The translations under genes and the position numbers were made by a program. Below are positions 2,302-29,277 of a DNA stretch of 32,357 nt, in pieces. The notes under the pieces were generated by a model. The model was not told the origin of the DNA and ran no database searches. It was given only the letters and a program-made list of their open reading frames with translations. The number at the start of each line of letters is the position of its first letter. The first letter of the stretch is position 1. Where the stretch lies: the NCBI GenBank assembly GCA_001789205.1, contig MFYT01000079.1, positions 1 through 32,357 on the forward strand, written 5' to 3'. This DNA comes from Candidatus Raymondbacteria bacterium RIFOXYA2_FULL_49_16 (GTDB lineage Bacteria; Fibrobacterota; OXYB2-FULL-49-7; XYB2-FULL-49-35).

Positions 2302-2559
2302 ACTGTCCCCCTTTATTTGTTGTAATCCATTGTTTCATAAGCCATTATCACATGATGTCGGGTATTATAAAATATAACGTATATTGGTTGTTTTTTAGAA
2401 ACTATAGCTGTCTGAAAATGCAGATTAAACCAGAAAAACGACTACTTTTCCGGAAAACCAGGGATTTTTCCGGAAATAGCTCTGTTTTCAGGCTTATTTT
2501 TCTTTAAATTGGCTGGGGATTTTATCCGACTATTTCGAAAAGTTGTTGCGCTAAAAACC
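2302..2559 (-). promoter_or_regulatory. Upstream region of the secreted hydrolase with two CCGG-centred palindromes
   Basis: This AT-rich 258-bp gap separates the broken esterase gene from the hydrolase at 100-2301. On the minus strand it holds a TATAAT -10-like box (2364-2369) about 63 bases from the start codon; I see no clear -35. Further upstream lie two near-identical palindromes, TTTTCCGGAAAA (2446-2457) and TTTCCGGAAA (2467-2476). Their centres are 20 bp apart, about two helical turns, as expected for tandem operator half-sites of an activator. The regulator is unknown; the AraC-type proteins of the locus are candidates. Confidence 0.4.
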
Positions 2560-3737
2560 TTATCTCACCAATAATATTTGATTTGTCCGCTCGTAATTGT
2601 TCGCTTTAAATTTGATCAAATATATTCCGCTTGGTACTTTATATTTTTCTTCATCCATGCCGTCCCAGGTTATCGTATGCCTTCCGGCATTCACCCTGCC
2701 ATTAATCAACTTCTTGACGATTTTTCCCTGCAAATCAAAAATGCGCGCAGTTATTTTTTGGTTCTCAAATATGTGAAAAACCATGTTGGTGGTTTGATTG
2801 AATGGATTCGGGTAGTTCTGAAAAACGACCAATCCACATGACCTGGACCGGCTTAGCGGTTCAGAAATAATACTGGACATGGGATGCTGGTTGAAAAACT
2901 CCCACATGGCGTTGTTTGCATCCATATCCGAACACGTATCCCCGGCCATGGCCACATAACAAGTACACAGAGTTCCTTTCGGACGTGTGATGCAGGCATC
3001 CAGGCCGTAGTCATGTCCGGCCCATGTATGACCCATGCTGTCGATGGTGCAAAGCGTGACCGCGGAACCATTGAGGCATTGGTCAAACGTGACGCAGACG
3101 GCTCTGCCATTCTGGTATGTGATGACCGTATGATCATCACAGCCGTTTATGGTCTTCCATTCCTCAATGTAGTCTGGAACAGGCCGGCACGCCCATTGAT
3201 TTACTTCGATTTCACCTAATCCAAGACACGCATAGTAATCATGCGTGAAAGTTCGCACGCGAGCCTGTAGGCCATTAGCGCGCCATTCGACATGCCAAGG
3301 GCAAAAATTCTTTGAGGATCAATATTAAAATCATCCTCCATCTGATCTATTAATGTATCAATAAAGGCAACGTCATCAATATTATTTTCCGTGGCAGGCG
3401 GACAGCACCTGCCCGCGTTCCATGATCCATATAATTTGCCAAGTACGGTTTTGCCGGTTCCTTGCGGATAGGCCACTATGAAATCCGATGTATCCGCTTT
3501 TCCATTCAGTTTGAAAAACTTGATACTACCTTCAGCGTCCCCGCCGCCTCCGTGAAAAGCCAAGACCAACGGCATAGGCATCGTTGAATCATAAGAAGAC
3601 GGGACATGAACTTTATATATACGTTCCAGCGTGTCCTGCTGAATGGAGAAATTATAATCACCAGGGCCAAAAGAAAATTGGGAAAAGACCGGCAAAGCCG
3701 CAACAAAAACAAACACGGGAATAATAACCGTTTTCAT
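2560..3737 (-). pseudogene. Broken PHB-depolymerase/feruloyl-esterase-like gene with sorting domain
   Basis: Two reading frames make up one disrupted gene. The 5' part (3216-3737, 173 codons) has a signal peptide (MKTVIIPVFVFVAALPVFSQ), the oxyanion region AFHGGGG and the nucleophile motif GMSNGALMAYRLACE typical of the LpqC/CE1 esterase family. The 3' part (2560 to about 3258) is in another frame. It carries the catalytic-His region GHTWAG and a complete sorting domain (YPNPFNQTT, SGIYLI). Compared with the family, the stretch after LACE that normally carries the catalytic Asp (HGTxDxxVPY) is missing, so a deletion plus frameshift near 3230-3260 is the simplest reading. It lies 25 bp downstream of the AraC-type regulator. 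A sequencing indel alone would not explain the missing Asp segment. Confidence 0.8.
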
Positions 3738-3762
3738 TCAATTCCTCTATCCTTTTATATTT

Positions 3763-5733: not shown

Positions 5734-5773
5734 GAATACTTTTTTTTTGAGCCTGATAGCAAAAAAATAACCC

Positions 5774-5788
5774 TTCCACACCGTGGAA
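5774..5788. promoter_or_regulatory. Inverted repeat upstream of membrane AraC gene
   Basis: TTCCAC-ACC-GTGGAA is a perfect 6-bp-arm inverted repeat about 40 bp upstream of the chosen regulator start and just after the stop of the preceding gene. It could be an autoregulatory operator or a weak hairpin. There is no T-run of the right length for a classical terminator. Confidence 0.25.
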
Positions 5789-5820
5789 ACAATACAAAAA
5801 CTTTCTTTGGAAAGTAAGCG

Positions 5821-7464: not shown

Positions 7465-7483
7465 CACCCCCTGTTGGATGAAT

Positions 7484-14410: not shown

Positions 14411-16318
14411 TCAGAGACGCTGTTTCATGTGCAAAACAGAGGGAAACCGCGAAGGATCAGTATGGGGTAAAAACAGCGCCCCTGTATAATGGTCCATGTA
14501 TGCAGGGTCTGAGCTGAGCTCCATATAGGTCATGCGCCGCGCCAGTTCCTGCTGATGCTCCTTGTATTCCTGCGACACAACCACCATATACGATCCCATG
14601 AGCGACGCATTGCCGATATAATGGAATTTCTCCTTTGCCACATCGGGTACAAGGCCGATGATTTTGGCCTTCTCAAGGTCAAGGAAACGGCCAAAACCGC
14701 CGGCAATATAAATATGCGCCAGATCGTTAAAATCCATGCCCGCCTGGTTGAGCATGAGCGTGCATGCCGAATAGATGGCTGCTTTTGCCCGGATAATATT
14801 CTCTATATCCAGTTCGCTTATCATGATGGGTTTATCGATGCCGCTCTGCGTTTCGGGTACAATGATATAATACGTACGCTTGCCAATTGTTTTTATACAA
14901 GCACATTCTCTGACTCGGTTCAGTTTGCCGGCAGAATCGAGCCATCCGGTAATAAACAATTCGGCCAATAGATCGATTATTCCCGATCCACAAATGCCTT
15001 TAGGCCGCACATCGCCGATGGTCGAGTAACTGGCAATACCTGTGATGGGATCGACCTTCACCTTTTCAACCGCGCCAAGCGCGGCCCGCATACCGCATTC
15101 AATGCCGCTGCCCTCAAAAGCAGGCCCTGCCGAACAGGCGCATGCCATAAGAAAATCTTTGTTGCCAAGAACAATTTCGCCGTTTGTTCCAATGTCGATA
15201 AAGAGATTCATTTCATCAATAGGCGTGGACAGATCAGTGCAGAGCACGCCCGCGGTAATATCGCCGCCCACATAACTGCCCACGCTTGGTGAAAAATAGA
15301 TCCAGGAATCGGGGTTGATCGTGATGCCCGTGTCAGCTGCGTTTAAATACGGGACTTCATGAACTGTTGGCGTATAGGGATCGAGCCTGATGTATTCGGG
15401 TTTGAGTCCAAGGAGCAGATGGGTCATGGTGGTATTGCCCGAGATCACCGCGTTGCAGATCTCCTCGGGCTGCACGCCGTGGCTCTCGGCCGCTTGCTTG
15501 ATGAGCTTGTTTATGGTATCGAGTACACGCGTGCGCAACTCCTGCTGTCGGTCGGGCCGTGCCGCATAGTTGATCCGGGAAATAACATCGAGTCCGCACG
15601 GTATCTGTCCGTTATAATCAGTGCGCGTGCAGAGAATATTGGCCTGTCCCAGATTTATAAGCTGCACCGCAATGGTAGTAGTGCCCACGTCAACGGCAAT
15701 GGCAAAATGGCGCAGCGTGGTATCGCCTTTTTCTATGCGAATGGCATGCACGCGCTCCTGGTCGCGCACAAAGGTGATGGTGACCTGGCCGTCTTCAGAG
15801 CGCAGGGCTTCTGCAGTGTCCCGGATGACAGAGAGCGGGTAGACGATCTCTATTTTCCCCCACCATTGCTGGATGGCACGGGTAAGACGGTCGAGGTCCG
15901 AGAGGCCGTCGCCCAGTTTTGGTCCCGGCACCTGGAGAAGCCATTTGACAGCCAGGGGATCGTACTGCCACTTCTGGGGCAGCAGCTCGCCACGGACAAG
16001 ATAGGTCTCGTCCTCGTCTGAAAATTTACCGCCTTCATACCCCTTGCGGTCAGGTACTTCCACCACCACGCACTCGTCAAGCACCCTGGTGCGGCAGGCA
16101 AGCACAATGCCCTCGGTCGCAGCCTCGGGCGGCAGCATGCCAAAACTCTCGGTATCAACCTGCCCTGATTTGATTTTGACCACGCACTTGCCGCAGGTGC
16201 CTTTTCCCCCGCACGGCACGTCGATTTCCACGCCCGCTTTGCGCGCAGCATCATGCAGCAGCGCGCCAGCCGCAACGTGTATGGTCTTCTTCGAGGGAAG
16301 AAATTCAATGACAGGCAT
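14411..16318 (-). CDS. acsV: RACo-type corrinoid activation protein (AcsV)
   Basis: The 635-residue protein has an N-terminal [2Fe-2S] ferredoxin domain with ligands Cys36, Cys42, Cys45 and Cys75 (PCGGKGTCGKC, LACRT). A linker and middle region follow, then an ASKHA-type ATPase domain (DUF4445) with AVDVGTTTIA, ISGNTTMTH, FIDIGTNGEI and YIAGGFGRFLDLEKA. Length and order match RACo of Carboxydothermus, the ATP-dependent reductive activator of the corrinoid iron-sulfur protein. It returns inactive Co(II) to Co(I) using an electron passed through its [2Fe-2S] cluster. It is the last gene of the acs operon, 76 bp after acsC, with a palindromic repeat in the gap. No ribosome-binding site is obvious before the ATG. 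Similar proteins serve other corrinoid methyltransferases, but the position next to acsC favours CoFeSP as partner. Confidence 0.93.
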   Translation of the reverse strand: MPVIEFLPSKKTIHVAAGALLHDAARKAGVEIDVPCGGKGTCGKCVVKIKSGQVDTESFGMLPPEAATEGIVLACRTRVLDECVVVEVPDRKGYEGGKFSDEDETYLVRGELLPQKWQYDPLAVKWLLQVPGPKLGDGLSDLDRLTRAIQQWWGKIEIVYPLSVIRDTAEALRSEDGQVTITFVRDQERVHAIRIEKGDTTLRHFAIAVDVGTTTIAVQLINLGQANILCTRTDYNGQIPCGLDVISRINYAARPDRQQELRTRVLDTINKLIKQAAESHGVQPEEICNAVISGNTTMTHLLLGLKPEYIRLDPYTPTVHEVPYLNAADTGITINPDSWIYFSPSVGSYVGGDITAGVLCTDLSTPIDEMNLFIDIGTNGEIVLGNKDFLMACACSAGPAFEGSGIECGMRAALGAVEKVKVDPITGIASYSTIGDVRPKGICGSGIIDLLAELFITGWLDSAGKLNRVRECACIKTIGKRTYYIIVPETQSGIDKPIMISELDIENIIRAKAAIYSACTLMLNQAGMDFNDLAHIYIAGGFGRFLDLEKAKIIGLVPDVAKEKFHYIGNASLMGSYMVVVSQEYKEHQQELARRMTYMELSSDPAYMDHYTGALFLPHTDPSRFPSVLHMKQRL

Positions 16319-16394: not shown

Positions 16395-17732
16395 TCATAT
16401 CCTAGCCTTTACAAAACTCTCGATATCCGCGGCCTCCTGCGGGCCCACCAGCACCTTCCAGCCCGGCAGATTTTCCTCAAGTTCGCCTGATATCTGGGCC
16501 ACATAGCCGGGTATGACAATGTTGCGGCAAGTGACCTGTTGCTCAAAACCGATTTCCTTGATAAATTTGGCAATAGTACTGCCCGAAAATTTTCCCGCTG
16601 CCCAGGCAGTAAGTACGCTCATGCCTTCACATTCAGGCACTACCAGCCAGGCGGATAGGCCGCTGTTCTCAATTTCACCTGATACCATGAAATAGGTGAG
16701 TGAAAAATTCGTTGTTACAAAAACAGGCGAATCGGCCTTGGGTTCGCCCACAGGATAAACCTTTGGTTCTACCTGAATGGGCTTTTGCGGATCGGTATAG
16801 ACGTTCAGGCGCAGGGTCATGAGCGACGCCATCTGCGCAGCATCAAATCCCGGAAGCACGCACACGCCGCCGAACTTGCAGATTTCATTTATTGCTTCGG
16901 CAGTATCGGCCATCAGGCCGCCTGTCTCAACAAACCGGAGCGTCGGATACCCGAGCGGTTTGTAGGAATCCTTGAGCGCGGTCCGCCGCGCAATGGTATT
17001 GGTCTGAAAAAGCTCGGCCAGCGAATGGGTGGAAAACTGCAGAAGAAGATCATTGAACCCCGCGTCCTTGACCCGCGCGGCAAGCGGAACAAGATCGTCC
17101 AGGCTTTCCGCGGTAAGCGCCAGCGCATGGTCGTTTTCCTTTGCCACAGGCCAAAGCTGGTCAGCGGTTCCGGGAGTGGCGGATGCTATGATGCTCCGCG
17201 AACCTTTGACAGCGGCAGCGGCCGAAACCAAGGCCTTCAGATCCGGACTGTTCAGAACAAGGGGTTTCTTCGTCATTTCCCACGCTTTGGTTGCCAGCGA
17301 AACAAAGGCTGAGGCGTCCGTGCCTTTCTGGGTCACGCTTACCATGTCAATGACCAGCCGCTCTCCCACCCGTTCGAGCACATAGTCTCGAACGGTTTTC
17401 AGAATCGTATCAGCGGTTTCGATGCTGTCCGTGTCGCTGACATTGACCGCTAAAAGCGTCTGATGCGCAAAGGTTTTTTCATGACGATACAGGACTGTTT
17501 CACCGCCAATTTTCAATGTCCGTCCGGGTCCAATGTCAACGCACTTCACCGGCGGTTCGGACGCAGCGCCCAAAACGCGCTTTGCCTCGTCCGACGCGTA
17601 GGGGCATTCGGACAGTTCCGTCTTCTTGGCCGCCAGCTTCATGGCAAAGGCCAGACAGGTGTTTGAACCGCATTCCTTGCAGTTTGTTTTGGGAAGAAGT
17701 TTCTGTATCTGGAGTCCGGTTAATGCTGCCAT
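16395..17732 (-). CDS. acsC: Corrinoid iron-sulfur protein large subunit (AcsC)
   Basis: The start is set at the ATG at 17732, preceded by GGAAAGG and one base after the stop of the fused acsB-acsD gene. The open frame extends 12 codons further but without support. The product is 445 residues, the usual size of AcsC (gamma subunit, CdhE homolog). The N-terminal [4Fe-4S] motif has Cys18, Cys21, Cys26 and Cys43 (KTNCKECGSNTC, ELSECPY). A TIM-barrel domain and a C-terminal B12-binding Rossmann-type domain (LPGWKVLVGPQEAADIE near the end) follow. The protein carries the corrinoid that shuttles the methyl group to the A-cluster of acetyl-CoA synthase. Its partner, the small subunit, is the C-terminal part of the gene just upstream. 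Confidence 0.95.
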   Translation of the reverse strand: MAALTGLQIQKLLPKTNCKECGSNTCLAFAMKLAAKKTELSECPYASDEAKRVLGAASEPPVKCVDIGPGRTLKIGGETVLYRHEKTFAHQTLLAVNVSDTDSIETADTILKTVRDYVLERVGERLVIDMVSVTQKGTDASAFVSLATKAWEMTKKPLVLNSPDLKALVSAAAAVKGSRSIIASATPGTADQLWPVAKENDHALALTAESLDDLVPLAARVKDAGFNDLLLQFSTHSLAELFQTNTIARRTALKDSYKPLGYPTLRFVETGGLMADTAEAINEICKFGGVCVLPGFDAAQMASLMTLRLNVYTDPQKPIQVEPKVYPVGEPKADSPVFVTTNFSLTYFMVSGEIENSGLSAWLVVPECEGMSVLTAWAAGKFSGSTIAKFIKEIGFEQQVTCRNIVIPGYVAQISGELEENLPGWKVLVGPQEAADIESFVKARI

Positions 17733-17733
17733 G

Positions 17734-20700
17734 TTATGCCTTTCCTTTCCCGTCCATGAGCTGTTCAATGGTGTTTTTTAAACCCTGCACAGCATCCGGG
17801 TGATACATGATAAAAACATCCGCGCCAGCATAGAGCAGACTGGTCGCAGTGGTGAGTTCCCAGAGGGCGGCGCGTTTTTTAAGCTCGCCCCAGGCGGGAA
17901 ACTCTTTTTCACTGGACTTGAGTTCCTTGATCTTCGCGCACTCCTGTCCGGGCGACACAATAATGGGAAACGCGAGCATGGCATCGCCGCCAAGGCCGGT
18001 TAGCCGTATCCGCTCCATGACCGAATAGGTGTATTCTATGCCGTATCCCATGGCGCCGGTCATTGCATCCATGACAATCTGGCCAGGTTTTACGTCCATG
18101 TTCGACAACAGAATATTGAGCTGCTTGCCGATATTAACGTCAATGGGGCTCATGGCCACAACCGAATGGCCATAGGCCAGCGCTGCGCCCGCAATGGTAC
18201 GGTAATTATCGGATTCGACCCAGTTTAACAGAAGATTTTCGCCCTTGCACGCGGCTGCCACTGCCTTCATCACCTCATTGCACCGGTCAAAACTGCTGTG
18301 GCCCGTGATAATGAGGGGCACATCCACTGCCGCAAGCACTGATTTGACAAGTTCGACCGCCTGATCGGGCGTACGGTCGCCTTTTTCCGGGTGCGTGCCT
18401 TCGAGCCGCACGGAGATAAGCTCTGCACCGTATTTTTCAACGCAGGCCTTTGCCATGTCAGCAGGATGGTTCAGCAGGTCGCCGTAGATTTCTCTGAGCA
18501 CTGCCGGGTACTTTGGCCCCACAACATCAAAGACCTCCATGGCAACAAGGGGTTTGTTTGGCATAACGCCTTCCCAGAGATGAAACGGCATTGCCGTTGC
18601 TCCGCCAATCTGGCAGACCTTTCCTCTGGTCCCGCCTTGCTCGCGCGTTGCGCCCAGCGTGACTGTATTCACCGGGATTGTCCCTGTATCTTTTTTAACG
18701 TTGAAAGCCGTAATTCCCGCAATCCGGTCCAATGCCCTGGGTCCTTGTGACACAGCCGGTTTTATTGATGGTTTTACCGGAAGAGGCCTGGGCCTTTCCG
18801 GTATGGATTGAACAGCGGCTTTTAATCCCAGAAATTTTTCGCTTAAGGTATTGATAATGTCTTTGACGATTTCTTCGGTTACCCGCGCCTTGAAGTCTTT
18901 CCTGACCTTTTCGGTAAGCTTGTTTGTTATTTCTTCAATAAGTTCAGGGGTTATTTCGGTCTTCTTGTCCCTGACCTCAGCATGAGCCTCAGCCTTGACC
19001 TCAACCTTGACTGGCTCTGGCTTGACCTCTTCCTGCTTCGCAGCGACCTGCGTCGATACACTCATGTCGTCCATTCCAAGCGCTGGATGACCTACTTTTT
19101 CCATGTGCATACGTATCTGTTTGGCGTCCGTTGCCACGGTCTCGTCCGCGATCTGATCCAGAAGACCCGGAACTCCCTGCTCCTCAAAACGCTTTACCAG
19201 ATCTTCTTTCAGGAGTTCTTTTAATTCTTTTGGCATCCAGACCAGTCTTTTAAAACCGCCGTCTGCCTTAAGAAACTTGCGGGAGGTCAGAAAGACCTTG
19301 CCGCAGCCCATGAAACCAGGGGTCTGCTGGCCGCCGCCCACCGAGCCGGCAAGCGTTGAAAAGATCATGCCGCTTGGCGTATCGCCGGTAAACTCGCGGT
19401 TGACCACCATGACCCCGTTGCATTCGGGAACATAGCCGCAGATAACCTCGAAACACCCGCACGAGGTCATGGGATGATCCATGATCGAGTATGCGGAAAA
19501 TGTCTCAATGGTCTTGTGCGAATTGATAAACACATAGTCATTGATGTTTTTCCAAATTCCCCTGACCGGGTCAACACACTCGCCTTTTATGACCGGCTGG
19601 TTGGGGCCGGTGTTGTCTATTTCGTATGCTGCCTTGCCATCGAGCCAGTTATACGCACCGCACAGGCCCAACCGTTCAGGCGTTATAATGCACACATGGT
19701 TTGGGGCAAAAGACTGACAAAGCAAACATGAATAAAAAGTGTCCACTGCTTCGTCAGTCATGGATTCCATGCGCCTGTTGCGCTCGTTATAGACCTTTCG
19801 TGCTATGACAATGCGCTTCTCAACTTCGTCCCTGTCAGTGATCATAGTGACCTGGACTTTATCGACAATGGCCGGATAGTCTGACAGAAATTTAGCATGG
19901 ATGATTTCGCCATAGTGTTTGAGCCGCAGTCCCTTGGCAAAACCGGCCTTTGACACACGCGTCCAGATAATATCGCGCTGGCCCATGTGCCACAGGCCTT
20001 CGGCGCCGTTGAGCATATGATGTATCTGGCGTTCAAGTATGGGCTCAAAATCAGACTGCATTTTTCGGCCCGCCACCTCGACCCAGATGGCAAGAGGCAT
20101 GCATTCGCCCTCAGGAATTTGGTCAATGTCCGGACCAATAACATCGATCTTTCCATCGACCACTTCCTCAAGTTCGCGCGAGGTGACAAATTCAAAGGCC
20201 GTGGTCTTGTTGCCGCCGAATTCGGCCTGGGTGTCTGCCTTGCGGATGCGCTCGCCTTCGAACGCAGGACCATAAGGCACGGGTACCGGCACCTTGGTTA
20301 TCTTGACCTTGCACCCGCGTACTTCGAGCGCTTTTTCAACCATGACCGCATGGGATACGTTTGACACAACATGCTCATAGGTGCAGATTCCCGTGGGAAG
20401 AATCTGAGGAATATCTGTGTCTGCGATGACCGGAAAGCCGTAGTTGATTGCGCCGGCAGCGGCCGCGTATTTTTCCTTGTCAACTTCGCCAAAGGCCAAA
20501 ACAAAGGCAAAAACCCGGTTTTTATTGTACTGAAGGTTGGCCGCGAAATCCCCGGGTTTTACCGCACCAAACGAAAGCGCGGCCCGGTTGGCAAATCCAA
20601 GCGCATATACCAGGGCCGAGACATCCCTGCCAAACGGGACCAGCCGCGTCTCCCATCCCAATTGCACGCCCGCCTCGTGGAGCTGCTCGGCAAACTGTTT

Positions 20701-21237
20701 GCCATTGGTCGAACCGGCCATGAACACATAGAGGTTCTTTTCCTGAAGTTCGCGCGCAATGGCCACCGCAATCTCGGTCGTAGGCGCTGCACCCGTGATG
20801 GCCGCAAACCCCGGCGCTGTACCGTCGACAAATTCTATTCCCCGCTCACGCATGATAATATCGTTTGCAGCGCCCAGCCAGATTCCTTCAGCCGGATTTG
20901 GGCCAATGAGATATTTGCACGCCTCAATGACTTCACAGGCAAAAAGCGAGGCAACACCCGCATCGAGCGTATTGCCAAGATAGGGCAGCCAGACCGAACC
21001 CGCGGGCCGGGCCGGAACCAGCGCTTTTGCACGTTTGAGAATGCAGCGCAGGTCAGCAAGCGTCTGCATCTTCTCAGCGGTAAGAGAATAAATGATGGGC
21101 AGAAAATAGGCTGTGTCCGGAAAACCAATGGTACACGATTCGCCCTTGGCCGCAATGGCCTGGTCGAGTTTTGCCTCGGCGCGCGCCACCCATTCGATGG
21201 CACCGTCAATGGCCTGTGTGCTGATGTGTTTAGACAT
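17734..21237 (-). CDS. acsB-acsD: Fused acetyl-CoA synthase / CoFeSP small subunit (AcsB-AcsD)
   Basis: One uninterrupted 1167-codon frame encodes two Wood-Ljungdahl proteins that are normally separate. Residues 1 to about 725 are a full-length bacterial acetyl-CoA synthase. The A-cluster ligands are all present: Cys504, Cys507, Cys516 and Cys526 (SCLLCQSF, HVC, LGLC) for the [4Fe-4S] cluster, and Cys593-Gly-Cys595 (TSCGCF) for the distal nickel. The spacing matches the Moorella enzyme with a 2-residue offset. Residues about 726-835 form a linker: a Lys/Glu/Pro/Val-rich stretch, two amphipathic helices (about 762-805) and a Pro-rich stretch. Residues about 836-1167 are a complete CoFeSP small subunit (AcsD) TIM barrel (QIGGATAMPFHLWEG, WVESDNYRTIAGAAL, MDAMTGAMGYGIEYTYSVME). 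The start overlaps acsA by 8 bp with a GGAGAG ribosome-binding site, and the stop is 1 bp before acsC. The fusion should tether CoFeSP to its methyl acceptor. Confidence 0.95.
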   Translation of the reverse strand: MSKHISTQAIDGAIEWVARAEAKLDQAIAAKGESCTIGFPDTAYFLPIIYSLTAEKMQTLADLRCILKRAKALVPARPAGSVWLPYLGNTLDAGVASLFACEVIEACKYLIGPNPAEGIWLGAANDIIMRERGIEFVDGTAPGFAAITGAAPTTEIAVAIARELQEKNLYVFMAGSTNGKQFAEQLHEAGVQLGWETRLVPFGRDVSALVYALGFANRAALSFGAVKPGDFAANLQYNKNRVFAFVLAFGEVDKEKYAAAAGAINYGFPVIADTDIPQILPTGICTYEHVVSNVSHAVMVEKALEVRGCKVKITKVPVPVPYGPAFEGERIRKADTQAEFGGNKTTAFEFVTSRELEEVVDGKIDVIGPDIDQIPEGECMPLAIWVEVAGRKMQSDFEPILERQIHHMLNGAEGLWHMGQRDIIWTRVSKAGFAKGLRLKHYGEIIHAKFLSDYPAIVDKVQVTMITDRDEVEKRIVIARKVYNERNRRMESMTDEAVDTFYSCLLCQSFAPNHVCIITPERLGLCGAYNWLDGKAAYEIDNTGPNQPVIKGECVDPVRGIWKNINDYVFINSHKTIETFSAYSIMDHPMTSCGCFEVICGYVPECNGVMVVNREFTGDTPSGMIFSTLAGSVGGGQQTPGFMGCGKVFLTSRKFLKADGGFKRLVWMPKELKELLKEDLVKRFEEQGVPGLLDQIADETVATDAKQIRMHMEKVGHPALGMDDMSVSTQVAAKQEEVKPEPVKVEVKAEAHAEVRDKKTEITPELIEEITNKLTEKVRKDFKARVTEEIVKDIINTLSEKFLGLKAAVQSIPERPRPLPVKPSIKPAVSQGPRALDRIAGITAFNVKKDTGTIPVNTVTLGATREQGGTRGKVCQIGGATAMPFHLWEGVMPNKPLVAMEVFDVVGPKYPAVLREIYGDLLNHPADMAKACVEKYGAELISVRLEGTHPEKGDRTPDQAVELVKSVLAAVDVPLIITGHSSFDRCNEVMKAVAAACKGENLLLNWVESDNYRTIAGAALAYGHSVVAMSPIDVNIGKQLNILLSNMDVKPGQIVMDAMTGAMGYGIEYTYSVMERIRLTGLGGDAMLAFPIIVSPGQECAKIKELKSSEKEFPAWGELKKRAALWELTTATSLLYAGADVFIMYHPDAVQGLKNTIEQLMDGKGKA
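18733..19062 (-). other. Interdomain linker of the AcsB-AcsD fusion
   Basis: This in-frame stretch encodes residues 726-835 of the fusion. The first 35 residues are low-complexity (KPEPVKVEVKAEAHAEV). Two related amphipathic segments follow, ITPELIEEITNKLTEKVRKD and VTEEIVKDIINTLSEKFLGL, which look like an internal duplication able to form a helical hairpin or oligomerise. A Pro-rich hinge (PERPRPLPVKPSIKP) then leads into the AcsD barrel. Charge and composition resemble swinging-arm linkers. An in-frame ATG at 19065, with GGAATGG about 9 bases upstream, could allow internal initiation of a linker-AcsD product; this is weak. Confidence 0.7.
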
Positions 21238-23179
21238 GGGCCTCTCTCCTCTGTTTCATATCAAGAAGCGTGCGCTCACTCTTTTTGTTGATATTCAGTT
21301 TGTCGCGTTTGGCGTTTATCAGGTCCATGACAAGCGTTGCGGCCTCGTGCGGATCGGGGCATACGTGAAACGAGGCGCCAAAGAGCTCGTGTGTTCCCTT
21401 GTTGAGAAAATTGGTCACCTTCTCGGAACCGGAAATGTGAAACGGCAGTCCCAGCACAACATCGATACCCGATGCAACGCAATAGGTGCCAATGGCAACG
21501 GCCTTCTCGCTCATCCATTCAGGCGCAATTCCCACGGCCGGAACATCGGACAGATCGTCCCCCAGACCTCCTTCAAGGACAATCTCAGTCGCTGCCTCGA
21601 GAATACGCGCATTGTCGACACAGCTGCCCATATGCAGCACCGGTGGGATGCCAACGGCCTCGCACACTTCGCGAAGTCCCGGACCCGCAAGTTCAAGCGC
21701 GGCCTCGGGAGTCAGCAGCCCCTCTTTTGCCGAGGCAATTGCCGCGCAGCCCGTGTTGAGCACCAACACATCGCGCTTGATGAGTTCGCGTGTAAGTGTG
21801 ATCATATAGGAATCCATCCTGATCTTGGGATTGTTGCATCCCACAATGCCCGCCACACCCTTGATACGTCCCTGGATAATCGCATCGTTGAGAGGCCGGA
21901 AAGTACTCCTAAACGTGCCGCCCAACATGTATCTGATGGATTCAACTGAGAAACCAGCCACAAGCGCCCGCTTTGCCAAAGGAATGCAGACCTTGGCCGG
22001 GTCTCTGCGTTTGTAATTTTCGATTGCCCGGCGGACAAGTCCTTTGGCGCTTTCAAGCGCATGTTGCTCGTCAAAGGCCTCGTGCACTGCGCCAATCGTC
22101 TGGGCAATATCGCTTGTTGAGACTATTTGCGTATGATAGGCCTTTGCGATCTCAGGCAGACTCGGCATGCAGCACTGCACATCAGTAATCATCACTTCCA
22201 CTGCGCCAGTGAGCAGGGCAAGCTCCTGCTGAAGAAAATTACCTGCAAGGGGAATGCCGTGGCGCATTAAAATTTCATTGGCAGTGCAGCAGATGCCGGC
22301 AAGGGTAATGCCCTCTGCTCCTGCCTCTTTGGCCGCTTTCACCATCTCAGGGTCAGAAACCGCAATTGCCAGCATTTCAGAAAGTGCGGGTTCGTGACCA
22401 TGAACCAGAATGTTCACTGTCTTTTCGCCCAGCACCCCCAGGTTTGCATTGCTAGCAATCGGGATGGGCGTGCCAAAAATAATGTCTGAAACAATGCTTG
22501 CAACGCGCGACCCGCCCCAGCCGTCTGAAAGCGCTGTCCGGAACGCGTGCATGAGAATGTTTTTATAATCATGGTCAACGCCCATGGTGGTACGGTGCAG
22601 CGCCTCGACCAGCATCCGGTCTATGCCGGCTGGTTCAATGTTCTGCCGTTTCCACACTGCCTGACGCTTCAGCGGAGCAAGGGACAAAGTTTTAAGATGC
22701 TCTTCCTGGGAGGTGAATTCTTTGAGAAAAATATCCGCAAGTTCACCAGCGACCTGCTTTTTTGTTTTATCAGCATCAATAATGCCGAATTTGCGCGCTG
22801 CTCTGCGCAACACCTTTTCGTCCTTTATTGCGTATTGCCCGCCCTTGCCCTCTGCCACACTCTTGAGCAGCAGTACCAGGTGTCGGCCATGGTCTGAATG
22901 GGCCGCAGTACCCCCTGCAACTTCGCGCAGATAGTTACGGGCCACAATGGTATCTGCATCAGCACCACAAATGCCCAGCGGCGCTTTTGCAGTAATACGG
23001 CAGGGGCCCATGTGGCATATGCGGCAGCAGACGCCGCTTTTCCCGAATCCGCATTGCACCTTCTGCGTTTCGTATCGAGAAAACGTGGTGCTTGCGCCAA
23101 GCTTTTCTGCACGCTCAATCATCTGAAGCGATGCCTGGTCCATGGCCTTTTTTTCCCGAGGGACGTTTGTTTCACTCAT
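21230..23179 (-). CDS. acsA: Anaerobic Ni-CO dehydrogenase catalytic subunit (AcsA)
   Basis: The 649-residue protein is a complete Ni,Fe-CODH. The N-terminal D/B-cluster ligands are Cys43, Cys51, Cys52, Cys55, Cys60 and Cys71 (QCGFGKSGVCCRICHMGPC). C-cluster ligands are found at His262 (VHGHEP), Cys297/298 (GICCTANE), Cys336/337 (VQCCMPS), Cys448 (VGCNNP), Cys478 (NTGCAA) and Cys520 (MGSCVDNAR). It interconverts CO2 and CO and passes CO to acetyl-CoA synthase. The start (ATGAGTGAA) overlaps the stop of the upstream ATPase by 4 bp and has a GGAG site. The stop overlaps the acsB-acsD start by 8 bp, so CODH and the fused synthase are probably translationally coupled, as expected for a CODH/ACS complex. 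Confidence 0.97.
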   Translation of the reverse strand: MSETNVPREKKAMDQASLQMIERAEKLGASTTFSRYETQKVQCGFGKSGVCCRICHMGPCRITAKAPLGICGADADTIVARNYLREVAGGTAAHSDHGRHLVLLLKSVAEGKGGQYAIKDEKVLRRAARKFGIIDADKTKKQVAGELADIFLKEFTSQEEHLKTLSLAPLKRQAVWKRQNIEPAGIDRMLVEALHRTTMGVDHDYKNILMHAFRTALSDGWGGSRVASIVSDIIFGTPIPIASNANLGVLGEKTVNILVHGHEPALSEMLAIAVSDPEMVKAAKEAGAEGITLAGICCTANEILMRHGIPLAGNFLQQELALLTGAVEVMITDVQCCMPSLPEIAKAYHTQIVSTSDIAQTIGAVHEAFDEQHALESAKGLVRRAIENYKRRDPAKVCIPLAKRALVAGFSVESIRYMLGGTFRSTFRPLNDAIIQGRIKGVAGIVGCNNPKIRMDSYMITLTRELIKRDVLVLNTGCAAIASAKEGLLTPEAALELAGPGLREVCEAVGIPPVLHMGSCVDNARILEAATEIVLEGGLGDDLSDVPAVGIAPEWMSEKAVAIGTYCVASGIDVVLGLPFHISGSEKVTNFLNKGTHELFGASFHVCPDPHEAATLVMDLINAKRDKLNINKKSERTLLDMKQRREAHV

Positions 23180-23946
23180 GTGGATTCTCCAGGTATATGA
23201 GTCAATAATGTATCAATGCATTGTACTGTCTGATTCTGCCCGGACAATTTATTAACACTCTCCCCTGCTTCGCTCAGACCGGCAACTTCCGGATCATTTG
23301 CAATACACATCAGGAGATCAGCCTGCGTTACTTCTTTAACTCGCTCCGCTGCCTGGGGAGTAACCCCGCTCTGGGATCGGTTCACCACCACAGCCAACTT
23401 TTTGTACTCTATCTCCATTTCATGCGTGAGACCATGGAGACGCGTCACAGTGTCCAATCCCCGCGCAGACGCGTCAGAGACCATGACCAGCAGATCGACC
23501 TTCTGCACAATACGCCGCGACAGATTCTCGAGTCCGGCTTCATTGTCGATGACCACAAAGGGATAGTTGTCCGCAATGGCCTTGATCACTGACCTCAAAA
23601 CATTGTTGGCATAGCAGTAGCAACCCGGGCCTTCAGGCCGGCCCATGGCAATAAGATCAAAACCATCTGATTCAACAAGGCTCTCCTCAATCTTCATTTC
23701 AAGCATCTGCTGTTTGGAAACGCCCTGTACCGCACCCGAACCAGCCGCCTTTTTCGTCTCCTCGCGCGCGCTGCCTACGGTTTTTGTTATGGAAACGCCA
23801 AGCGCTGCATCGAGACACGAATTTGGGTCAGCATCCACTGCCAGCACCGGTGTTTTTCCTGCGGCCACCAGCCGTGAAATAATAAGGCTTGAGATGGTCG
23901 TCTTCCCCACCCCGCCTTTTCCCGTCACTGCAATGATATAGCTCAT
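23176..23946 (-). CDS. CooC/AcsF-type MinD-family ATPase (nickel insertion)
   Basis: The 256-residue protein has the deviant Walker A GKGGVGKTT (about 10-18), a VDADPNS switch region and a Cys-X-Cys motif in GRPEGPGCYCYANN (Cys109, Cys111). This matches the CooC family of nickel-dependent ATPases that mature CODH; the related AcsF matures the A-cluster of acetyl-CoA synthase. It is one of two such proteins in the operon, the other being at 25375-26154. It overlaps acsA by 4 bp, so it may serve either cluster. I favour an AcsF-like role because the other paralog has the more typical CooC signature, but this is inference. Its start is 54 bp after the methyltransferase stop, across a palindromic repeat; the ribosome-binding site is weak. 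Confidence 0.85.
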   Translation of the reverse strand: MSYIIAVTGKGGVGKTTISSLIISRLVAAGKTPVLAVDADPNSCLDAALGVSITKTVGSAREETKKAAGSGAVQGVSKQQMLEMKIEESLVESDGFDLIAMGRPEGPGCYCYANNVLRSVIKAIADNYPFVVIDNEAGLENLSRRIVQKVDLLVMVSDASARGLDTVTRLHGLTHEMEIEYKKLAVVVNRSQSGVTPQAAERVKEVTQADLLMCIANDPEVAGLSEAGESVNKLSGQNQTVQCIDTLLTHIPGEST

Positions 23947-24000: not shown

Positions 24001-25074
24001 TCAGAACCCGTATTTCTTTTTCAATGCAATGGACAGTTCGCCCAGAAGCTTGAACACCCGCTCCGCGTCTTCGACAGGAAGCGATCCAGTGCCGCACGAA
24101 GGTGTTATCACGGCCTGTTCGAGTATGAGCTGTTTATCGATGCCCTTGGCCGCCAGATTGTCCACAACCTTTTCGAATTGAGCGACAAGCGTTTCCACAC
24201 TCTGGTCGCGGATTGCGGCTGAAGTGGGGACAACACCCCAGGCAAGCGCACCGCCTTTCTGCAGGTGGTTTTTGACAGCCTCGGGGTACATGGCAATGGT
24301 TTCGCCAAAACCAAATGCGTCAAAATTGACAATATCGACCTCAGCATCGATCAGAATGCTCCATTCCGTATTGCCGCAGCAGTGCACGCCCGCAAGAGCG
24401 CCTTCGGAATGAATGGCCTGGACCAATTCGTTGATGGCCGCGACAACGTCCTCGCGTTTCACCGAAACATAGGTGGAGCTGCCGAATGCCGAAAGGATGG
24501 GTTCGTCGATAAAACAGATGATTCTCTGCGCAAAGGGCTTGAACTTCTGGATCTGCCAGCGGCACTTCATGGCAAGCGCTTTGATGATCAGGTCTCTGAA
24601 TTCATCGTTGTACCACATGGCGCGCTTGTTTTCATCGGTAATGGTAAGGGCGAAGCTGCAGGGACCCGTGGTCTGTACCTTTATAAAAGGCCGTGTACCA
24701 CCCGTAGAGGTCAACCGTTTTTCGAGCGCATAGATGCCTTTAGAAAAATCTGGGCCAATGGCCAGGGCCGAGCAATCGCCGGTTCCGGTCTCAGGGTCCA
24801 TGGCAGCCATATAGGATTCGTAGAACCCGGCAAACTGCTCTGAAGAATCAACGGCAGTGTCAAAATACATGCGTTTTTTCGCCTCGTCAATTACCGCGGA
24901 GGGCATGCCCTCGGAATATTGTATTTCCATCTGCTCGTGCAGGCCAAATGCAGGCAGCTGCGGCCAGATGGGCGCGTAGGGAATAGCTGACAAAACAACA
25001 GAGACCGCCTTGTCAGGGTCTGCATGGGGCAGGCTGCCGATTGCGGTTGCGAGACATTTTGGTTTGAAAGACAT
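24001..25074 (-). CDS. MetE-like (core) zinc methyltransferase, candidate corrinoid-dependent methionine synthase
   Basis: The 357-residue protein belongs to the MetE-C/uroporphyrinogen-decarboxylase-like barrel superfamily. It opens with ATAIGSLPHADPDKA and carries a zinc site resembling the His-X-Cys...Cys pattern: His231-Cys232-Cys233 (GVHCCGN) and Cys327 (ITPSCGTGS). The glutamate that is the third zinc ligand in MetE is not at the expected place; Asp252 (NFDAFGFGE) lies there instead. It lacks the N-terminal half of MetE that binds folate. Core-MetE proteins of anaerobes are proposed to make methionine from a methyl-corrinoid protein. Placement inside the acs operon, with AAAGGAG before the ATG, makes methyl-CoFeSP the obvious donor candidate. 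A different acceptor thiol, or a methyltransferase feeding CoFeSP, cannot be excluded. Confidence 0.75.
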   Translation of the reverse strand: MSFKPKCLATAIGSLPHADPDKAVSVVLSAIPYAPIWPQLPAFGLHEQMEIQYSEGMPSAVIDEAKKRMYFDTAVDSSEQFAGFYESYMAAMDPETGTGDCSALAIGPDFSKGIYALEKRLTSTGGTRPFIKVQTTGPCSFALTITDENKRAMWYNDEFRDLIIKALAMKCRWQIQKFKPFAQRIICFIDEPILSAFGSSTYVSVKREDVVAAINELVQAIHSEGALAGVHCCGNTEWSILIDAEVDIVNFDAFGFGETIAMYPEAVKNHLQKGGALAWGVVPTSAAIRDQSVETLVAQFEKVVDNLAAKGIDKQLILEQAVITPSCGTGSLPVEDAERVFKLLGELSIALKKKYGF

Positions 25075-25374: not shown

Positions 25375-26154
25375 CTACTGCCTCCGGGACAAAAGTGTTG
25401 AAAGAATGGTTTCAAACTGTTTTACCAGGGCCGGGGCCATGCCTGAAAGTACTGAGGTGGCGTCCCTGTCCGCGCCCCGTATTTCCTCGGTGAACGGGAT
25501 GCTGCCGATAAGATCCGCACCAGACAGATGTTGTTCGATATAGCGGGCATCAGCGGCAGAAGCGACCTTGTTGGCCACCACACAGATGTCTTTGATTCCT
25601 ATTCTGCGAGCCATGGGCACAATACGGCAAGCAGCATTAATTGAGCGTTGGCCAGGTTCAACCACAATAACCAGTATATCCACCCCTTTGGCGGTTGCGC
25701 GGCCAAGATGTTCGATGCCCGCCTCCATGTCCATGACCAGGGATTCATCCTTGTGCAACACCAAATCTGTGACCAGCGCCTTGATCAGCACATTCTCAGG
25801 ACATGCGCATCCCGAACCACCATCTTTGACAGCGCCAAGCACCAGCAGTCCAACGCCATTGTGCGTGTAAGCGAACTTCTCGGCAATGTCTGAAACCTCG
25901 GGATTCAACTTGAATATCTGTCCATACTGTTTAACTTTTGCGCCGGTCCGCTCCTCAACAAGGGCCTTGTGTTGGGAAATAGGTATAATCGTGCGCTGTT
26001 CTTCAGCGGAAATTCCAAGGGCAGAGGCAAGGTTCGCGTCAGGATCAGCATCAAGCGCCAGCACTTTCTTTCCCTGGCGCGCCATAAGCAGGGCCAGGCT
26101 TGCTGCCAGCGTTGTTTTGCCCACCCCGCCCTTGCCAGATACCGCGATCTTCAT
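25375..26154 (-). CDS. cooC: CooC-type nickel-insertion ATPase
   Basis: The 259-residue protein has the deviant Walker A GKGGVGKTT (7-15), a LDADPDAN switch I region, the metal-binding Cys-X-Cys in GGSGCACPEN (Cys116, Cys118) and the DMEAGIEHLGR switch II segment. These are the hallmarks of CooC, a homodimeric MinD-type ATPase that binds nickel and drives its insertion into the CODH C-cluster. It is the first gene of the acs operon, with a strong ribosome-binding site (AAAGGAG) 8-9 bases before the ATG. It is separated by 101 bp from a divergent PocR-AraC regulator. Confidence 0.92.
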   Translation of the reverse strand: MKIAVSGKGGVGKTTLAASLALLMARQGKKVLALDADPDANLASALGISAEEQRTIIPISQHKALVEERTGAKVKQYGQIFKLNPEVSDIAEKFAYTHNGVGLLVLGAVKDGGSGCACPENVLIKALVTDLVLHKDESLVMDMEAGIEHLGRATAKGVDILVIVVEPGQRSINAACRIVPMARRIGIKDICVVANKVASAADARYIEQHLSGADLIGSIPFTEEIRGADRDATSVLSGMAPALVKQFETILSTLLSRRQ

Positions 26155-26255: not shown

Positions 26256-27509
26256 ATGAACGTTCCAGGACTGGATACGGTAAGACAAAAATTCAAGGCG
26301 CAGTTTGCGCTTCCCATAGAAATTACCGGACACGGATGCGAGTTCAAGGCGGCCGCGTCCTTTTTCCCCCCATTCTGCAAAGTTGTGTATACGCGCCAAG
26401 AACATCGGAACTGCCTCGACATCCGCCGCCGCGCCCTTGAAACCGCTGTCCAGACCGGCAGGGAAAACATTTTTCTCTGCCACCGCGGGCTTATCTGCTG
26501 TGTCTATCCGCTCCTGCGCGACAATGAATGCGCGGGCGGGCTCTTCATGGGCAAAGTGCGTGTTAGGTCCGACAGCGACACCAGCGTCCCCATGCCCGAC
26601 ACAGTGAAATCAGGCCTTTCCAACCTGAAAAAAGCGGAAAAAGCATGGAACAGAACTATCATGGTCACGCCCGAAGAGTTTCAAAAGGCTGTGGATTATT
26701 TTGTCGCACTGATAAAAACACATATTAAACACGACACCACGGCTCTTCGCGAAAAATACATTACCGCTGACCAACAGTCGCGCATTGCGGAGATAATCCA
26801 CGAACACAAGGTGCGGAACCAGCAACCCGGCTACCCCTATGCGCTTGAAAAGAGCCTCTCGGCCATGGTGGCAGAGGGCAACAGGATAGAGGCGATCAAA
26901 GCATTAAATGAGGTACTTGCCAGCATCCTCTTCAAAGATCCGGGAAATATGGCTGTCATCAAATCACGCATGCTCGAACTGGTCGTGGTGCTTTCCCGGG
27001 CTGTTGCTGAAACCAATGCGGAGCAGGACCGGCTCTTTGAGATAAACCGGGAATCCATGGAAAAAATAACCGGATCCGATAATCTTGAGCAGATATGCCT
27101 TTACGTGGCCCGTACGCTCGAAAAATACCTCGACCTGTCGGTATCTGGTCAATCCAAACTGAAAAACCGCTCCCTGCAGTTGGCGCTTTCCTATATCCAT
27201 TCGCATCTTGAGGAAAAACTGACCCTTGGAGCGGTTGCCAGGCAGGCGGGCATTGGCCCTTTCCGGCTCGCCCATCTTTTCAGGGAAATCATGGGAACTA
27301 CCTTTGTGGACTATGTAACCAACCAGCGTATCAGCCTCGCCCGCAAGCTGCTGGTCAACTCGGACCTGACCGCCACAGAAATAGCGTTTCGCGTTGGTTT
27401 CTCGGACCAGAGTTATTTTACAAAGATTTTTAAAATTATCGCTGGTGTCACACCAAAGAAATTCCAGACAGAAAACAAAAAATTGCAGAAATATTTTTCA
27501 GGAGCATAA
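26256..27509 (+). CDS. PocR-domain AraC-family regulator
   Basis: The 417-residue protein has an N-terminal PocR sensory domain (about 5-160). Conserved cysteines are in HGCEF, FFPPFCKV, EHRNCLDIRR, FLCHRGLICCVYPL. A central helical region follows (about 185-300). A C-terminal AraC helix-turn-helix pair ends it (about 305-405, KLTLGAVARQAGIGPFRLAHLF and ATEIAFRVGFSDQSYFTKIF). PocR domains sense small organic ligands in regulators such as PocR of the propanediol/cobalamin operons, and the domain occurs widely in anaerobes. Divergent placement 101 bp from cooC makes it the likely regulator of the CODH/ACS operon. A phosphatase-like gene follows after 1 bp, so the two are co-transcribed. Confidence 0.88.
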   Translation: MNVPGLDTVRQKFKAQFALPIEITGHGCEFKAAASFFPPFCKVVYTRQEHRNCLDIRRRALETAVQTGRENIFLCHRGLICCVYPLLRDNECAGGLFMGKVRVRSDSDTSVPMPDTVKSGLSNLKKAEKAWNRTIMVTPEEFQKAVDYFVALIKTHIKHDTTALREKYITADQQSRIAEIIHEHKVRNQQPGYPYALEKSLSAMVAEGNRIEAIKALNEVLASILFKDPGNMAVIKSRMLELVVVLSRAVAETNAEQDRLFEINRESMEKITGSDNLEQICLYVARTLEKYLDLSVSGQSKLKNRSLQLALSYIHSHLEEKLTLGAVARQAGIGPFRLAHLFREIMGTTFVDYVTNQRISLARKLLVNSDLTATEIAFRVGFSDQSYFTKIFKIIAGVTPKKFQTENKKLQKYFSGA

Positions 27510-28410: not shown

Positions 28411-29277
28411 ATGGCCATTTCAATAGCCGACATCACCACCCAGTCCGCCCATATCAGCGATGGCGCATGGGGCACTGAATTTGCCAAACTTGGATCCCTG
28501 GGCGGCATGTGCGCGGAGATCTGGAATCTAAAGAAACCGGAAAATGTGGAAAAAGTCGCTAAGAGCTACATTGACGCAGGCAGCCAGATCATCCTCACCA
28601 ACAGCTTCTCCGGCAACCGCTTCAGACTCAAGGAATACAATCTGGACAGCAAGCTTAAAGAGATAAACATGAAGGCCGTGGAAATTTCAAAAAAAGCCGC
28701 TGCAGGCAAAGCCCTGGTATTTGCCTCCATGGGACCTGTTGGAAAACTGGTTTCCATGGGCGAGATTTCAGAAGAGGACGCTTATGCCGCGTTCCTGGAA
28801 CAGGCCCAGGCGTTTAAAGAAGCGGGCGCAGACGGCGTGGTCGCAGAAACCATGAGCGATGCGCCTGAGGTAAAACAGGCAATTCTTGCCATAAAGAAAA
28901 CCGGCCTTTTTGCCGTGGCAAGCATGAGTTTTGATTCTGGTGAACACAAGACCCACACCATGATGGGCGTGTCAGCCGAGGACGCGGTCACCCTCTGCAC
29001 CGAAGTCAATGCTGACATGATCGGCGCCAATTGCGGCACAGGGATTAATAATTTCGTCAATATCTGCAAAGAATTCAAACGTCTCTGGAAAAAACCCATC
29101 TGGATCAAGGGCAATGCGGGTCTTCCCGAGGTTGTGGAAGGAAAGACCGTCTATAAAATGGGTCCTGATGAATTTGCCCGGCACGCGCTCGAAATAGTGA
29201 AGCTCGGTGCAAATGTAGTGGGCGGCTGCTGCGGCACCTCCCCTGCACATCTTGCTGCACTGGCAAGGGTAATGTAA
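28411..29277 (+). CDS. Homocysteine S-methyltransferase (zinc-dependent, MetH-N/BHMT-like)
   Basis: The 288-residue protein is a single homocysteine-methyltransferase barrel. The opening ISDGAWGTEF and TNSFSGNRFRL match the family. The zinc ligands are Cys208 (GANCGTG) and Cys273-Cys274 (GGCCGTSPAH). It transfers a methyl group to homocysteine (or a similar thiol), usually from a methylated corrinoid protein, betaine or S-methylmethionine. No corrinoid-binding or folate domain is fused, so a separate methyl donor protein is needed. With the MetE-like enzyme in the acs operon, this is the second zinc thiol-methyltransferase in the window. The stop codon overlaps the first of two GC-rich palindromes. 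Confidence 0.9.
   Translation: MAISIADITTQSAHISDGAWGTEFAKLGSLGGMCAEIWNLKKPENVEKVAKSYIDAGSQIILTNSFSGNRFRLKEYNLDSKLKEINMKAVEISKKAAAGKALVFASMGPVGKLVSMGEISEEDAYAAFLEQAQAFKEAGADGVVAETMSDAPEVKQAILAIKKTGLFAVASMSFDSGEHKTHTMMGVSAEDAVTLCTEVNADMIGANCGTGINNFVNICKEFKRLWKKPIWIKGNAGLPEVVEGKTVYKMGPDEFARHALEIVKLGANVVGGCCGTSPAHLAALARVM

Follow-up and report, generated by a model that had tools for sequence, protein, structure and literature searches.

The window, a 32,357-nucleotide stretch of contig MFYT01000079.1 from Candidatus Raymondbacteria bacterium RIFOXYA2_FULL_49_16, encodes a natural in-frame fusion of acetyl-CoA synthase (ACS, AcsB) to the CoFeSP small subunit (AcsD), in which a complete three-domain ACS is joined to a complete AcsD barrel. 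Far from being confined to this genome, the fusion is the mark of a single widespread clade, and it represents an inherited variant of an ancient machinery for CO2 fixation. It is apparently undescribed: like the earlier note on this DNA, which knew of no such protein, a search of the open-access literature, outside which part of the key literature lies, found no description of an AcsB-AcsD fusion.

The fused acsBD gene

The fused gene, designated acsBD, and its parts are listed below.

17734..21237, minus strand: acsBD, fused acetyl-CoA synthase and CoFeSP small subunit, 1167 aa (single open frame; NF040764 and NF003376 above cut-off; architecture common to 41 loci)
19057..21237, minus strand: ACS (AcsB) part, residues 1-727, domains A1-A2-A3 (profile matches, Foldseek)
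19453..19728, minus strand: codons of the A-cluster ligands C504, C507, C516, C526, C593 and C595 (invariant in 29 fused sequences)
18709..19056, minus strand: linker, residues ~728-843 (~116 aa), disordered/helix/disordered, rich in A, P, E and S (length and composition of 41 linkers; pLDDT)
18832..18948, minus strand: predicted linker helix, residues 764-802, with the conserved pattern EIVxDIIxTLxxKFLG (AlphaFold; motif count)
17734..18708, minus strand: AcsD (CoFeSP small subunit) TIM-barrel part, residues 844-1167 and stop codon (NF003376, Foldseek)

As read from the ORFs of the window, the 1167 codons (21237-17734) include no internal stop. NF040764, the ACS equivalog, covers residues 10-725 with 1046 bits (cut-off 800), and the AcsD model NF003376 covers residues 853-1161 with 369 bits (cut-off 280), the AcsD part scoring below the cut-off of the narrower model NF040759. 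The Pfam matches are CODH_A_N (21-110), CdhC (318-472), ACS_CODH_B_C (483-725) and CdhD (862-1096). In Foldseek comparisons, the folds of all parts agree with the assigned families, with TMt values of 0.91 for the ACS part against A1 of the C. autoethanogenum ACS, 0.93 for the same part against the truncated ACS 3git, and 0.95 for the AcsD barrel against 4djd_D. All six A-cluster cysteines are invariant among the 29 aligned fusions. The proposal that one intact frame, with no stop or frameshift between the domains, holds a full-length ACS with its six A-cluster cysteines and a full-length AcsD barrel was therefore borne out.

Distribution and origin of the fusion

The source genome is a draft of 5.43 Mb in 112 contigs, estimated to be 100% complete. 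A standalone acsD elsewhere in it, raised in the earlier note as a point to check, was not found, acsBD being the sole match to either acsB or acsD in the 5.43 Mb. The count of full-length two-domain matches, also proposed there, gave 41 fetched loci carrying the same fusion as one open frame; these come from independent projects and, by record titles, about 13 lineages, and include the closed chromosome CP070691.1 (locus L050, genome G089). No other acsB or acsD was found in 33 further fusion-bearing genomes. Hence, the fusion must supply both subunits in these genomes and in that of the window.

A draft of 112 contigs could harbour two genes joined artefactually by assembly or sequencing, but this explanation retains virtually no probability, as the identical join recurs in the 41 loci and on the closed chromosome, and the linker is homologous across the fused loci. 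With no stop, a sole copy and the same join in dozens of assemblies, misassembly or frameshift was rejected as the source of the fusion. In two Hydrogenedentota members (L044 and L045), the frame is split within the linker by an N-gap or frameshift, which may reflect either a draft-assembly error or a real fission.

In the ACS tree (100/99) as well as the AcsD tree (91/90), the fused proteins fall into a single clade, which suggests a single origin of the fusion followed by spread between phyla. The fused AcsD part clusters robustly with AcsD of the Aminicenantes type (100/99), and a Brocadiales origin for it was rejected (p 0.0003); its closest relatives are encoded by genes of their own, in operons with the order acsA-acsB-cooC-acsD-acsC-acsV. 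For the ACS part, a grouping with Aminicenantes was weakly rejected (p 0.022), and no sister group was settled in the ACS tree. The two halves may be of mosaic origin. A 1063-aa open frame in genome G316, considered as a second kind of fusion, was discarded, since acsB, acsD, acsC and acsE lie side by side there as individual genes.

The acsBD operon

The genes neighbouring acsBD were assigned as follows.

14411..16318, minus strand: acsV, corrinoid reductive activator (RACo) (RACo_C_ter, Raco_middle, RACo_linker, Fer2; NF040756 675 bits, below the 800 cut-off)
16395..17732, minus strand: acsC, CoFeSP large subunit (corrinoid and 4Fe-4S) (NF003195 496 bits, cut-off 306; junction sequence)
21230..23179, minus strand: acsA, Ni-CODH catalytic subunit, with an 8-base overlap with acsBD (TIGR01702 648 bits, cut-off 478)
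23176..23946, minus strand: cooC1, Ni-insertion type ATPase (AAA_31/CbiA; gene orders)
24001..25074, minus strand: MesB-type core methionine synthase with S14, D190 and H231-C233-D252-C327 (conserved residues; MetE structures are the nearest folds)
25375..26154, minus strand: cooC2, second CooC-like ATPase (CbiA/ArsA-type; conserved neighbour)
26256..27509, plus strand: divergent AraC-family regulator with a PocR sensory domain (PocR, HTH_18)
28411..29277, plus strand: stand-alone homocysteine S-methyltransferase domain (PF02574 217 bits; gene orders)

Directly downstream of acsBD lie acsC and then acsV. The acsC gene is intact, as had been noted; from the junction sequence, it most likely starts at the ATG at 17732, directly past the acsBD stop, and not at the upstream TTG. 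The arrangement described as usual in acetogens, with acsC and acsV between acsB and acsD, is seen in the Desulfotomaculum-type locus L066 but does not hold for L101, in which acsB and acsD are adjacent without being fused. In fused operons cooC is upstream of acsA, whereas in the closest unfused operons it lies between acsB and acsD. The probable first gene of the operon is cooC2. Relatives of the AraC/PocR regulator adjoin loci L050, L062, L073, L074 and L082, and relatives of the homocysteine S-methyltransferase directly precede mesB in several fused operons.

Linker and proposed working of the fusion

Across the 41 fused loci, the linker is 64-251 aa long (median 127). The AlphaFold model of acsBD has two confident folded blocks and, between them, a disordered linker (pLDDT <50 at residues 732-761 and 804-832) with one 39-residue helix, and its pTM of 0.49 points to no fixed mutual orientation of the ACS and AcsD blocks. 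The helix motif occurs in 32 of 41 linkers versus 0.4 in shuffled linkers. However, the helix is not essential, as three Syntrophaceae linkers of 64-70 aa are without it. Assignment of the linker to a known domain was rejected, as searches of PDB and Pfam gave no relatives beyond chance-level helix matches.

The product of acsBD is probably one chain in which a working ACS bears the AcsD of its own methyl donor on a flexible arm. It would be translated as a single uncleaved polypeptide, and AcsC, the corrinoid subunit, would dock on the attached AcsD, bringing CODH, ACS and CoFeSP into one stable assembly. The methyl-cobamide would then be kept near the mobile A3 domain with its A-cluster, and methyl exchange might become faster or more exclusive. 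Tethering of CoFeSP to the A-cluster is most likely, and a fixed 1:1 ACS:AcsD ratio combined with a tether, as suggested earlier, is plausible and agrees with the flexibility predicted for the linker. A rough random-coil estimate for 125 residues puts the reach at ~62 angstrom rms and the local concentration on the order of 2 mM. Attachment of AcsD also fits known docking, since the ACS N-terminal domain touches the CoFeSP beta subunit, i.e. AcsD, in a published ACS-CoFeSP model (PMC12289521).

Being largely disordered by prediction, the linker should be accessible to proteases, and a cut in it, or additional AcsD made from an internal start, would leave two ordinary subunits in the cell. Such an outcome is unlikely. 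In-frame starts accompanied by a Shine-Dalgarno-like sequence occur no more often in the linker (22/41) than in ACS control stretches (57%), no conserved internal start was found among the 41 linkers, and AcsD synthesis from within the linker was rejected on this lack of excess. Moreover, no conserved cleavage motif was seen in the aligned linkers, while the linker helix is conserved.

Supply and fate of the methyl group

No acsE was found in or near the fused operons examined. The window's own genome has no recognisable AcsE, the best candidate falling far under both AcsE model cut-offs. Stand-alone AcsE-like ORFs, counted at a threshold of >=115 bits that was set after the scores were seen, occur in 1 of 43 fusion genomes versus 21 of 31 unfused ones; within Spirochaetota, at this post hoc threshold, the counts are 0/10 and 11/15 (Fisher p 0.0005). 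ORFs of ~800 aa with high AcsE-model scores in fused genomes were dismissed, as those checked (G061 and G075) represent the MetH pterin domain in a MetH without the activation domain. A stand-alone 238-bit candidate in G029 was also dismissed; it adjoins MttB genes, and its score on the AcsE exception model is only 116 bits. Fhs (FTHFS) was not found in the window's genome and is absent from 18 of 33 fused genomes, including a closed chromosome. Thus, of the Wood-Ljungdahl acetogen/autotroph set of Fhs, AcsE and MetF, only MetF was recognised in the window's genome. With no Fhs and no recognisable AcsE, the host is probably not an ordinary acetogen, and the acetogen framing of fusion-bearing genomes is doubtful, given that AcsE is mostly missing, about half are without Fhs, and a MesB-type synthase is usual in the operons.

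In the MesB-type protein, S14, D190, H231, C233, D252 and C327 are all invariant and are spaced like the MesB positions of PMC7857596; it thus carries the HCDC form of the MesB zinc ligands (HCDC or HCEC) together with the Ser and Asp substrate residues. A possible scheme, though one falling short of probable, is AcsE-independent acetyl-CoA cleavage, in which ACS cleaves acetyl-CoA, CODH oxidises the CO and the methyl group of the tethered CoFeSP passes to this MesB, as proposed for Dehalococcoides mccartyi, which is without AcsE and MetF and uses MesB (PMC7857596). The scarcity of AcsE and Fhs in fused genomes, the MesB signature on a MetE-like fold and the presence of mesB in 19 of 23 fused loci examined are consistent with this. 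However, the window's genome has MetF and full MetH, so MesB would be redundant, and mesB is also found in unfused operons of AcsE-bearing genomes. The D. mccartyi study cautions that MesB-like proteins in such bacteria may have another role (PMC7857596).

Fhs is present in 15 of the 33 fusion genomes, which argues against cleavage and for the usual Wood-Ljungdahl direction, with methyl-THF or other donors serving CoFeSP via a methyltransferase that the AcsE models miss. This we hold to be conceivable without being likely. It is favoured by MetF, by MttB-family methyltransferases in 15/35 fusion genomes and by a stand-alone 291-aa pterin-binding methyltransferase, encoded beside a homocysteine methyltransferase in the window's genome, that is weakly AcsE-like (97 bits, NF005719). 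Yet on the AcsE exception model, with its cut-off of 370, this protein reaches no more than 41 bits, the operons examined have no acsE, and the window's genome is without Fhs. No MttB was found there either, and methylamine supply via MttB was rejected for it.

A broader proposal, which we regard as rather unlikely, is that the fusion defines a separate, horizontally spread AcsE-free class of CODH/ACS, whose tethered CoFeSP would swap methyl groups with a MesB-type enzyme and not with methyl-THF, forming a self-contained machine between acetyl-CoA and the methionine methyl group, run in either direction by numerous uncultured, non-acetogenic anaerobes.

Significance and comparison with known systems

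The way in which ACS and CoFeSP come together for methyl transfer is still being worked out; according to AlphaFold models and low-resolution maps ACS moves extensively, and imaging was hampered by crowding from free CoFeSP (PMC12289521). A natural single-chain version offers structural and kinetic studies a construct of fixed stoichiometry, and a simple way to ask if docking is rate-limiting. In genome data, the fusion also serves as a marker of one CODH/ACS operon clade, found mostly in uncultured phyla. In this clade, routine annotation may list acsD as absent or flag an oversized ACS, and may assign a Wood-Ljungdahl pathway even though AcsE and, often, Fhs are missing. If the AcsE-free reading is true, metagenome-based claims of acetogenesis in these phyla would need re-examination.

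The CODH/ACS systems of Moorella thermoacetica, Carboxydothermus hydrogenoformans and Clostridium autoethanogenum have the same three-domain ACS, A-cluster ligands and AcsD TIM barrel, and also group AcsC, AcsV, CODH and CooC in one operon. They differ in having one gene each for AcsB and AcsD, a free-standing CoFeSP heterodimer and, as a rule, an acsE gene. Separate AcsB and AcsD polypeptides, a feature of the known bacterial systems, are replaced here by one frame.

The archaeal ACDS (CdhC, CdhD, CdhE) shares a stable ACS-CoFeSP association with the proposed fused assembly, but its subunits are separate chains and its ACS is without the A1 domain that acsBD has. The methanogen ACS carries a flexible C-terminal extension of ~75 aa, thought important for motion towards CoFeSP (PMC11474084). 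In Desulfurivibrio alkaliphilus, where a MetF-AcsD fusion is annotated (PMC5016858), AcsD is fused within the same pathway, but to methylene-THF reductase and not to ACS.

The Aminicenantes/KSB1-type unfused operons (L053, L057, L062 and L079) hold the closest AcsD relatives and, in most cases, mesB and two cooC genes, but have the order B-cooC-D-C-V and encode two separate proteins. D. mccartyi likewise has no recognisable AcsE, and its MesB-type synthase is thought to take the CoFeSP methyl group (PMC7857596, PMC7005905); unlike this MetF-less organism, the window's genome combines CODH, MetF and MetH with an ACS fused to AcsD.

The acsBD gene encodes ACS and AcsD in one frame

The acsBD gene (21237-17734, minus strand) is an uninterrupted open frame of 1167 codons. 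Residues 10-725 of its product are matched by the ACS equivalog model NF040764 (1046 bits, cut-off 800) and residues 853-1161 by the AcsD model NF003376 (369 bits, cut-off 280). In a comparison with the sequences of solved structures, residues 5-725 align with the ACS of Carboxydothermus and Moorella over almost the full length, and residues 846-1162 with the CoFeSP small subunit. Foldseek TMt values for the AlphaFold model were ~0.91 for A1, ~0.93 for A2-A3 and ~0.95 for AcsD. The A-cluster cysteines, all six of which had been reported as present in the earlier note, are found at positions 504, 507, 516, 526, 593 and 595 and are unchanged across 29 aligned fusions. The acsA and acsBD genes share an 8-base overlap, and the most probable start of acsC lies two bases past the acsBD stop.

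The proposal of a natural AcsB-AcsD fusion in one intact frame is borne out by both family models scoring above their cut-offs and by the same frame in 41 loci, and the fusion is not an artefact. A search for a standalone acsD in the same genome (5.43 Mb, estimated 100% complete) returned exactly one match, acsBD itself. No family combining both parts was among the NCBIfam and Pfam matches of acsBD. In the earlier note no such fusion was known to be described, and none was found in full-text searches of an open-access library.

Distribution and origin of the fusion

The genome-wide collection gave 80 loci, and the one-frame script was run over 92 loci, in 41 of which, including the closed chromosome CP070691.1, ACS and AcsD share one frame. 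By record title, the fused loci belong to Fibrobacterota, Lentisphaerota, Verrucomicrobiota, KSB1, Aminicenantes, Spirochaetota, SAR324, Syntrophaceae, Ignavibacteriota, Phycisphaerae, Acidobacteria, Sumerlaeota and Hydrogenedentota, though individual assignments may be wrong because most are metagenome bins. Whole-genome searches of 33 fused-clade genomes (31 with an intact frame and two, carrying L044 and L045, with a split frame) gave no further acsB or acsD, additional rows being short fragments or other stretches of the same frame. Among 61 surveyed genomes, the full fusion is present in five, including the source of the window; in two more the fusion is interrupted by a contig end, and another two encode the proteins separately, in genes of a different type. 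In Spirochaetota (n=296 genomes), ~12 have the fusion and ~14 separate genes. Two genomes of the same phylum as the window (G033 and G055; loci L007, L008, L011 and L012) have an unfused CODH/ACS of another kind (53% identity), and two operon lineages therefore coexist in this phylum.

The fused sequences form one clade in both the ACS tree (support 100/99) and the AcsD tree (91/90). Clade members labelled as separate (L006, L009, L010, L040, L043 and L064) are contig-end truncations, and in the Hydrogenedentota members L044 (4333-4468) and L045 (10256-10520) the linker is interrupted by an N-gap or frameshift, reflecting either draft error or secondary fission. The halves may differ in their nearest relatives, AcsD being firmly of the Aminicenantes type and ACS not. 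Gene order in the nearest AcsD relatives (Aminicenantes/KSB1 type) is acsA-acsB-cooC-acsD-acsC-acsV, and in the fused loci cooC-acsA-acsBD-acsC-acsV. The simplest route would be movement of cooC out from between acsB and acsD, followed by loss of the acsB stop and gain of a new linker. Locus L101 (genome G316) has acsB, acsD, acsC and acsE in that order as separate genes, so acsB-acsD adjacency exists without fusion.

The linker and a possible assembly

The 41 linkers range from 64 to 251 aa (median 127), and their composition is enriched in P, S, Q and A. In the window protein, AlphaFold predicts disorder at 732-761 and 804-832 flanking one helix (764-802), and the pTM of 0.49 gives no fixed mutual orientation of the two folded blocks. 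An EIVxDIIxTLxxKFLG-like pattern on the helix occurs in 32 of the 41 linkers vs 0.4 expected after shuffling, and is absent from the short-linker Syntrophaceae and the deep branch L004, L005 and L051. Searches of PDB and Pfam gave no relatives of the helix above chance-level helix matches, and the linker shows no enrichment of in-frame starts that have a Shine-Dalgarno-like sequence.

In published work (PMC12289521), ACS alternates between a closed conformation, connected by the tunnel, and extended conformations able to receive CoFeSP; in an AlphaFold3 model from the same work, the N-terminal domain of ACS touches AcsD (the CoFeSP beta subunit), and its middle and C-terminal domains are contacted by AcsC. 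By a crude estimate for the chain, the ~125-residue arm would reach ~62 angstrom rms and produce a millimolar local concentration. Running from the A3 end to the AcsD start, this arm could span ACS-CoFeSP docking distances; AcsC would dock on the tethered AcsD, with methyl transfer probably occurring inside the assembly.

Methyl branch and neighbouring genes

The source genome has MetF. Fhs was not found in it, and the single stand-alone AcsE-like protein that it encodes falls short of both AcsE models, with 97 bits against a requirement of 259 and 41 bits against 370. This genome is nearly complete and encodes CODH/ACS and MetF, yet neither Fhs nor a recognisable AcsE, which leaves the textbook methyl branch incomplete. 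Fhs was also not found in 18 of 33 fused-clade genomes, the closed chromosome among them. Stand-alone AcsE-like ORFs (at least 115 bits on NF040758, a threshold fixed after the scores were seen) occur in 1 of 43 fused-clade vs 21 of 31 unfused genomes, and within Spirochaetota in 0/10 vs 11/15 (Fisher p 0.0005), which is an association and not proof because of the post-hoc threshold, the draft genomes and the single operon clade of the fused genomes. The sole fused-clade ORF that reaches this threshold adjoins MttB genes.

Genes in or near the operon are:
24001-25074, minus strand, MesB-type core methionine synthase with the MesB-defining residues S14, D190, H231, C233, D252 and C327
26256-27509, plus strand, AraC regulator with a PocR domain, divergent from the operon
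28411-29277, plus strand, PF02574-type potential homocysteine methyltransferase

The model of the MesB-type product resembles MetE, and 19 of the 23 fused loci checked contain mesB. As MesB is thought to accept methyl groups from CoFeSP (PMC7857596), acetyl-CoA cleavage might supply methyl groups for methionine, although the MetH and MetF of the source genome argue against a strict need for this route. Forward acetyl-CoA synthesis, with methyl groups delivered by an unrecognised methyltransferase, is about equally likely.

The MesB-type and PF02574-type genes, each for a potential homocysteine methyltransferase, are also seen in other fused operons, and similar PocR-type regulators adjoin L050, L062, L073, L074 and L082. 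At locus L097 (8203-9981), a homocysteine methyltransferase domain and a pterin-binding methyltransferase domain are encoded by two separate neighbouring genes and a corrinoid domain is lacking, an arrangement resembling a MetH split in two that relies on another corrinoid protein. Several secreted proteins encoded at 100-9805 of the window (esterase/PHB-depolymerase-like and others) carry C-terminal sorting domains of type IX secretion, which fits a Fibrobacterota/FCB host. The source genome also appears to belong to Fibrobacterota because two genomes of its phylum are identical, in the genes studied, to named Chitinivibrionales records.

Comparison with known systems

In Dehalococcoides, MesB is likewise present and AcsE absent (PMC7857596). 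The nearest published fusion is the MetF-AcsD protein of Desulfurivibrio (PMC5016858), in which the partner of AcsD is MetF, whereas here it is ACS. The fused ACS-CoFeSP may represent a bacterial counterpart of the archaeal ACDS, a stable complex whose ACS bears its own flexible C-terminal extension (PMC11474084).
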